Positions 20,898 through 21,619 of a stretch of 64,000 nt of DNA are shown here, one piece after another. The notes under the pieces are model-generated. The model had not been told where the DNA came from, made no database searches, and saw only the letters and a program-made list of their open reading frames with translations. A program made the position numbers and the translations under genes. This stretch comes from Cytobacillus firmus (GTDB lineage: Bacteria; Bacillota; Bacilli; Bacillales; Cytobacillaceae), in NCBI RefSeq assembly GCF_023657595.1, contig NZ_CP098323.1:644001-708000 (forward strand), written 5' to 3'. How positions within the stretch are numbered: position 1 is the stretch's first letter; each line of letters starts with the position of its first letter.

Positions 20898-20923
20898 GGC
20901 CCGCTAAAGAAGCGGGCCCTTTT
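20898..20923 (+). terminator. Terminator of the iron-import operon
   Basis: GGCCCGCT pairs with AGCGGGCC, followed by CTTTT. Confidence 0.88.
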
Positions 20924-21030
20924 GCTGTTCTGCCAGACACTTTATTTTGGAAGCTTTCATAAATTGTTCATATTTATTTGCTATAGTACTTTGGTATAGT
21001 AAGAGAAGAAGACAGAATAAGGATGTGAAA

Positions 21031-21561
21031 ATGATGAAGATCAAATTGGTTCTTGCTGCTTCACTGATTTCTATGGCATTAGCTGGATGTGGACAAGCAG
21101 ATTCCAAGGATGATGCTGTTTCAGAGACTGAAGACATCAAAGCATTAGTGAAGGATTACAGCGTTGGAAACATAAAGACCGGATCTGCCTCCATTAGCTC
21201 AGAGCAGCTGATCGTTAAAGAATCGGACGGAGAAGAATTATCCTATGATCTGCCGGAAGAAGAGTTCTTCGTATCGATTGCCCCTTACGCTAATGAAACG
21301 CACCCTTGAACGAATCATAGCTTGACAGGTTGTCAAGGTGAACTGGCTGAAAAAGAGTTTGATGTATATATTGAGGATTCGGAAGGCAATGTGATTTTGG
21401 ATGATACGATCAAAACCCAGGCTAATGGATTTTTCGATTTATGGCTTCCAAGAGACAAAACTTATCAAATAAAGATTAAGCATGATGGAAAAGCATCAGA
21501 ATCGGAAATTTCAACGTTTAAGGATGACGCTACTTGCATTACCACGATGCAATTAACATAA
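21031..21561 (+). CDS. cueP: CueP-family copper-binding lipoprotein with in-frame TGA at the first conserved Cys
   Basis: The frame is open for 177 codons except a TGA at 21307-21309. It has a signal peptide with lipobox ALAGC and the CueP body with THP-x-TNHSLTGCQGEL and a C-terminal TCITTMQL. CueP of enterobacteria has three conserved Cys (96, 104, 172; from memory). The spacing here is identical: 8 residues from the TGA to the TGC Cys and 68 from there to the last Cys, so TGA stands where Cys96 belongs. Eleven nt after the TGA is a perfect 17-nt hairpin CTTGAC-AGGTT-GTCAAG. This may be a nonsense mutation or, less likely, a selenocysteine codon. AAGGATGTG precedes the ATG at 21031. Confidence 0.8.
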
Positions 21562-21592: not shown

Positions 21593-21619
21593 GAGCTGCC
21601 ATTAGGCGGCTCTTTTTTT
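21593..21619 (+). terminator. Rho-independent terminator after cueP
   Basis: GAGCTGCC-ATTA-GGCGGCTC followed by seven T. Confidence 0.88.

Follow-up and report, generated by a model that had tools for sequence, protein, structure and literature searches.

A predicted selenocysteine form of CueP, conserved among Cytobacillus firmus and its relatives

The cueP gene found at positions 21031-21561 of the DNA analysed here (64,000 nucleotides from Cytobacillus firmus, positions 644,001 to 708,000 of contig NZ_CP098323.1 in assembly GCF_023657595.1, hereafter the window) is almost certainly a selenoprotein gene, in which an in-frame UGA would be decoded as selenocysteine (Sec) under the direction of a SECIS hairpin, giving a probably lipid-anchored CueP with its selenium at a copper-type site. 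Judged by its sequences, Sec-CueP, the selenocysteine form of CueP, is a conserved bacterial selenoprotein because the codon and the hairpin are both conserved, and because the UGA form co-occurs with SelB; by the same kind of evidence, insertion of selenium into CueP in vivo is very likely. In the proposed mechanism, (i) the UGA at 21307-21309 would be read as selenocysteine by SelB carrying Sec-tRNA(Sec), (ii) an mRNA hairpin 11 nt downstream, i.e. a bacterial SECIS, would direct this decoding, (iii) SelA and SelD would supply the Sec-tRNA and (iv) Sec93 would form, together with Cys101, Cys169, His91 and His96, the site that binds copper in Salmonella CueP.

The frame, which like the other mapped features of the cueP locus lies on the + strand, runs from an ATG at 21031 to a TAA at 21559-21561 with a single in-frame TGA at 21307-21309, and encodes 176 residues when UGA is read as Sec. 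Direct reading of the sequence bears out the initial annotation, which had described a frame intact on either side of the TGA and two further motif Cys lying 8 and 68 residues beyond it. The UGA specifies residue 93, which corresponds to the first Cys of the motif HPCxNHSLxGC, and the two others are Cys101 (TGT, 21331-21333, within the hairpin) and Cys169 (21535-21537, the third residue of the motif triad). This 93/101/169 arrangement matches 96/104/172, which we take to be the numbering, and hence the Cys spacing, of Salmonella CueP. A fourth Cys, residue 20, ends a LAGC sequence (residues 17-20, 21079-21090) that we assume to be a lipobox; C20 is conserved in at least 90% of 53 aligned proteins and, since the motif resembles a lipobox, the protein is probably lipid-anchored outside the cell membrane.

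All family, structure and fold comparisons were made with U replaced by C. The window protein scores 193 bits against NF038094 (NCBIfam CueP_fam, cut-off 60) and 151 bits against PF21172 (Pfam CueP, cut-off 27), and does not reach the cut-off of NF038095, the model for CueP sensu stricto or Salmonella-type metallochaperone (137.7 vs 195 bits). In its alignment with the Salmonella CueP structure (PDB 4GQZ, E 1.1e-28), the first Cys of THPC-x-NHSL-x-GCQGE is opposite the TGA and both other Cys are matched as well, and an AlphaFold2 model computed from 53 window and relative sequences (out of 60 picked), with a mean pLDDT of 82.6, reproduces the 4GQZ fold (Foldseek E 7.4e-15). His91, position 93 (where C stands for either Cys or Sec), His96, Cys101 and Cys169 are invariant in the 53-protein alignment. 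The three motif Cys/Sec and the His are thus conserved and the fold is that of CueP, which places the protein in this family. What it has in common with Salmonella CueP (NF038095, 4GQZ), a periplasmic copper-binding protein, is the fold, the HPC-x-NHSL-x-GCQGE motif and a C-terminal TC; what sets it apart is the Sec in place of the first Cys, the lipobox-like start (a motif looked for in the window protein, not in its Salmonella counterpart) and the sub-threshold NF038095 score.

The closest records to the window gene come from C. firmus (98%), and TGA-containing homologues are present in other organisms, most of these matches having exactly one internal stop. Among the 235 loci that reach the site (from a set of 237, in which L177 and L178 fall short of it and the repeats L256 and L258 are excluded), the codon is TGA in 151, TGT in 62, TGC in 21 and TAC in one, while TAA and TAG are found in none; the same species sometimes appears twice in this count, where two collections overlap. 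These loci yield 123 distinct TGA reading frames and 74 distinct Cys reading frames. At the level of the family, 107 of 193 genomes have a CueP match (87 with a TGA copy, 16 with only Cys copies and four with only fragments). An even sample of the order has CueP in 88 of 397 genomes, with TGA in 42 of these 88, and an even sample of the phylum in 9 of 398, its two TGA genomes being the window's own and one other member of the family. Searches of plasmid and phage collections returned only distant CueP relatives (23 and four records, respectively, all below 60% identity), and most of the plasmid rows (21 of 23) bear the annotation CueP family metal-binding protein.

The Cys version occurs in many lineages and the phylogeny implies several Sec/Cys swaps. 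A tree of 190 proteins, in which 27 of 187 inner branches are well supported (L092, L096, L156, L176, L236, L240 and L241 were left out), calls for at least 21 Sec/Cys changes, five of which are forced by well-supported branches. In the five independent Sec/Cys pairs available on well-supported branches, the hairpin follows Sec in four and shows no difference in one, which is too few for significance. Some genomes have several copies, with three TGA copies in G182. The Cys-CueP of related Bacillaceae-type genomes belongs to the same family and has the same motif, and the two forms sometimes share a genus or even a genome (G044 and G224 have one TGA and one Cys copy each); it differs by its TGT or TGC codon, by variable codons, by the rarity of the AGGTT hairpin (2 of 74 frames) and by the frequent lack of a SelB match (SelB in 23 of 62 genomes). 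The one locus with Tyr (TAC) at the Sec site, L236 (C1:355500-356400 of G350), is a second and damaged cueP copy, in which the next Cys codon is TGA and one more stop, a TAG, is present, located about 17 kb from the intact copy in a genome without SelB match.

Immediately after the TGA comes an 11-nt spacer (21310-21320), equal in length in all 123 distinct TGA frames, followed by the 17-nt hairpin CTTGAC-AGGTT-GTCAAG at 21321-21337, exactly where the initial annotation had put it. The published model of bacterial SECIS elements stipulates a loop of 3-9 nt, a stem of 4-16 bp, a G in the first two loop bases, a distance of 16-37 nt from the UGA and a minimum free energy at or below -7.5 (PMC13188914 section 5). 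The cueP hairpin fits it throughout, including the rules on loop G and UGA-loop distance that had been singled out at the start: its loop is AGGTT (GGU when A-U pairs) and lies 17-18 nt after the UGA, its stem is 6-7 bp and the folding energy of 21307-21345 is -8.8 kcal/mol. Taken alone, this energy is unremarkable (z -1.46; 12 of 200 shuffled sequences match or exceed its stability), and the case for a SECIS therefore rests on conservation. The minimal E. coli fdhF SECIS is likewise a short hairpin after UGA, from which that of cueP differs in stem sequence and coding context (HSLTGCQ). Closer to home, the SelD gene of the window genome (L180) has a hairpin after its own TGA with AGGUU spanning the apex as in cueP, but partly paired; the stem sequence differs, and the apical loop stands about 33 nt from the UGA vs 17-18 in cueP.

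All six stem pairs, the AGGTT loop and the 11-nt spacing are found in 123 of 123 distinct TGA reading frames, while among the Cys frames six pairs form in 10 of 74, and six pairs with AGGTT in two (the count covers 197 of 198 distinct frames, fragments included, L236 with its TAC being left out). The comparison with close relatives that had been proposed thus finds both TGA and hairpin kept, with compensatory and synonymous-site evidence in addition. Every stem variant in the TGA forms preserves pairing, either by two-sided changes (T-A to C-G, A-T to G-C) or by G-T wobbles: pair 1 is C-G in 121 frames and T-G in two, pair 2 is T-A in 110 and C-G in 13, and pair 5 is A-T in 118, G-T in three and G-C in two. 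The best tree of the 190 proteins has poor resolution; on it, pair 2 has changed at least five times and pair 5 at least four times. At the Thr and Gly codons that form the loop, synonymous entropy is 0.00 in TGA forms vs 1.60 and 1.85 in Cys forms. Immediately outside the hairpin, Gly 10 and Leu 12 vary in both forms (TGA-form entropy 1.45 and 1.83); lower diversity in TGA than in Cys forms is also seen at some outside codons (0.28 vs 0.86 at His 3, and 0.32 vs 0.84 at codon 15). In 2000 random synonymous recodings that kept the frames' own codon usage, stem and loop survived in 1.0 of 123 frames on average and in no more than 6. Identity among the TGA proteins goes down to 43% (median 63%), so conservation of the hairpin goes beyond what recent common descent alone would leave.

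An ordinary nonsense mutation (i.e. a pseudogene) or a sequencing error, accompanied by a hairpin arising by chance from the codons for L-T-G-C-Q, which the initial annotation had retained as the plain alternative, is rejected as wildly improbable: although UGA is a stop in translation table 11, the z-score of the hairpin is only -1.46 and a few relatives have broken copies (L236; L096/L176, L092/L156, L240), the error or mutation is refuted by a codon that is the same TGA in 151 of 235 loci and never another stop, by most TGA matches having one internal stop, by the ubiquity of the hairpin in TGA frames and by the recoding null, which disposes of chance pairing as well, since Cys forms mostly encode the same residues yet rarely form the hairpin.

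The machinery for decoding is in place. Absence of selB or selC had been named as grounds for abandoning the Sec reading, and a search of the window genome (one contig, 4,981,461 bases, i.e. 4.98 Mb) recovered the complete set: tRNA-Sec (58 bits above the Rfam gathering score, and also called by ARAGORN, which gave the anticodon TCA), SelA (547 bits), SelB (370 bits) and SelD (425 bits, with one in-frame TGA of its own), with the genes dispersed at 1.90, 2.07, 2.14 and 2.21 Mb. A lack of Sec machinery is thereby refuted. Family-wide, 170 of the 193 genomes have a SelB above the cut-off and 172 have tRNA-Sec.

The distribution of SelB follows the form of CueP: of the 117 genomes with TGA-CueP, 115 have SelB, vs 23 of the 62 with Cys-CueP (86 of 87 vs 7 of 16 within the family, and 29 of 30 vs 16 of 46 in the order outside it), with a combined Fisher p of 8e-21 that ignores kinship. 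The family figures cover the 87 TGA and 16 Cys genomes among the 107 with a match, the four fragment-only genomes being dropped and the codon read in all, and the SelB-negatives itemised for the 193 family genomes include every CueP-bearing one, three other negatives being left unitemised. The order figures cover 30 TGA and 46 Cys genomes (76 further genomes); the codon was read in 36 of these 46, and the other ten were called Cys from a match without stop alone. Genomes with damaged cueP copies were counted as TGA (G055, G069 and G537), and G350, with its intact and broken copies, as Cys. The two TGA genomes without SelB match are G078, which is 66% complete and has no tRNA-Sec match either, and G389, which is in 480 contigs and belongs to the same genus as G364, which has SelB. 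Within a single genus, g134, two genomes combine TGA with SelB (G459 and G555) and one has Cys and no SelB match (G518).

This distribution bears on a second alternative, namely that the UGA is read as another residue (Trp or Cys via a suppressor) or acts as a regulated stop. UGA readthrough is known in bacteria in general, and Sec at residue 93 is predicted here from sequence, but homologues have Cys at the site, SelB tracks the TGA form, the hairpin obeys the SECIS rules and the SelD of the same genome combines an in-frame TGA with a downstream hairpin bearing AGGUU at its apex, all of which makes this alternative very improbable. The selenocysteine reading first put forward is instead supported, by the presence of the Sec machinery and by relatives that keep both TGA and hairpin.

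What else in these bacteria would use selenocysteine? In the window genome, none of the six formate-dehydrogenase-like matches contains a stop codon. Formate dehydrogenase matches without in-frame stop were recorded at C1:3180970, 2530111 and 3209273 of the C. firmus genome G000 (L261-L263). Of the 36 genomes of the genus, 13 have a formate dehydrogenase match (E 1e-180 or better) with one in-frame TGA, and the enzyme is apparently a Sec/Cys mosaic there. Seven of the 23 Sec-CueP genomes of the genus (G055, with its damaged cueP, included) are among these 13; the remaining 16 have no such match, which makes CueP and SelD candidates for chief Sec users, in a comparison that covers CueP, SelD (in the window genome only) and formate dehydrogenase. 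If genuine, Sec-CueP may help explain why the Sec machinery persists in some of these bacteria in which formate dehydrogenase has no UGA.

As for function, the published accounts of Salmonella CueP describe a protein that binds copper, supports copper tolerance, helps metallate SodC and is handed copper by the Scs thiol-reductase proteins (PMC13201067, PMC7558416), and whose C104S variant lost copper protection (PMC13201067). Sec93 stands eight residues before Cys101, the equivalent of Cys104. From the family, the fold and this Salmonella precedent, we infer that Sec-CueP would bind copper too. The selenolate of Sec93 could then be a soft Cu(I) ligand or the fast, oxidation-tolerant half of a Se-S couple with a Cys, a redox partner that would reduce Cu(II) or survive oxidation outside the cell. 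A bolder possibility, somewhat less likely than not, is that Sec93 is a direct copper ligand, forming a natural Cu-selenolate site in an extracytoplasmic copper chaperone, and that CueP (with SelD) is a main reason for the Sec machinery being kept in the C. firmus clade, whose formate-dehydrogenase matches show no in-frame UGA.

A tblastn search for four copper-island genes, covering up to 3 kb of flanking sequence at 50 named-contig loci, found none beside Sec-cueP in 28 TGA loci, while the flanks of 22 Cys loci contained genes for a P-type ATPase (nine loci), a CcdA-like protein (eight), a TlpA-like protein (eight) and a four-helix Cys-rich protein (six). In these flanks the four genes occur beside Cys forms only, and no conserved copper operon was found around Sec-cueP. 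L064, L079 and six similar loci have Cys-CueP near P-type ATPase, TlpA-like and CcdA-like genes, with the four-helix protein in six; these names, like that of a multicopper-oxidase-like frame also seen at L064, are our presumptive assignments from sequence.

A rather unlikely alternative is that CueP is a selenoprotein in which the task of Sec93 is redox chemistry (selenenyl-sulfide exchange, or reactions of peroxides or thiols) and not copper binding. A 2026 review regards redox functions as likely for most uncharacterised selenoproteins (PMC13188914 section 7), the Salmonella residue whose change (C104S) abolished copper protection is Cys104 and not the equivalent of Sec93 (PMC13201067), and a CcdA-like and TlpA-like thiol-reductase pair flanks 8 of 22 Cys loci vs none of 28 Sec loci. 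The absence of this pair beside Sec loci would fit a Sec that needs less outside help. However, the eight Cys loci resemble one shared island and may represent a single event, and the CueP-family scores, the invariance of residues 91, 93, 96, 101 and 169 and the 4GQZ fold all point to a copper site.

No report of a selenoprotein form of CueP was found in the literature searched. Table 1 of a 2026 review, which catalogues 119 prokaryotic selenoprotein families and subfamilies (PMC13188914), has no entry for CueP, PF21172 or NF038094, and the word CueP is absent from its text; a term search of the main text of the deep-Sep paper and of Peng 2016 did not find CueP either, and the NCBIfam description line of the CueP family makes no mention of selenium. 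The metal-related selenoproteins in that table, i.e. CopZ-like (2Fe-2S) forms, a P-type ATPase with UxxC, the SO_0444 Cu/Zn efflux transporter and a putative mercuric transport protein, have metal handling in common with Sec-CueP, and are families set apart from CueP by their domain identifiers (PMC13188914 Table 1). If genuine, Sec-CueP would add a selenoprotein family to the catalogue and tie selenium to the extracellular handling of copper. In the order sample it occurs in 42 of the 88 genomes with CueP, and where UGA is taken for a stop codon it is likely to be mistaken for a truncated gene. Its repeated natural exchanges of Sec and Cys would also offer, within a single small protein, a way to ask what selenium does for a metal site.

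Finally, terminator-like hairpins, both from a consensus scan only, follow the upstream ABC-transporter gene (20898-20918) and cueP itself (21593-21612), which suggests that cueP is transcribed alone; a Pfam scan of five neighbouring window proteins revealed no copper gene. Among 18 upstream regions that were aligned, no operator motif common to all was seen. In six of them, those of the C. firmus clade, a TTCATA direct repeat with 11-base spacing (20956-20972) is kept, possibly as a response-regulator site. Further along the window, positions 28001-52000 have a G+C content of about 0.34-0.37, compared with 0.38-0.44 elsewhere except in the last 4 kb, and are perhaps an acquired region.
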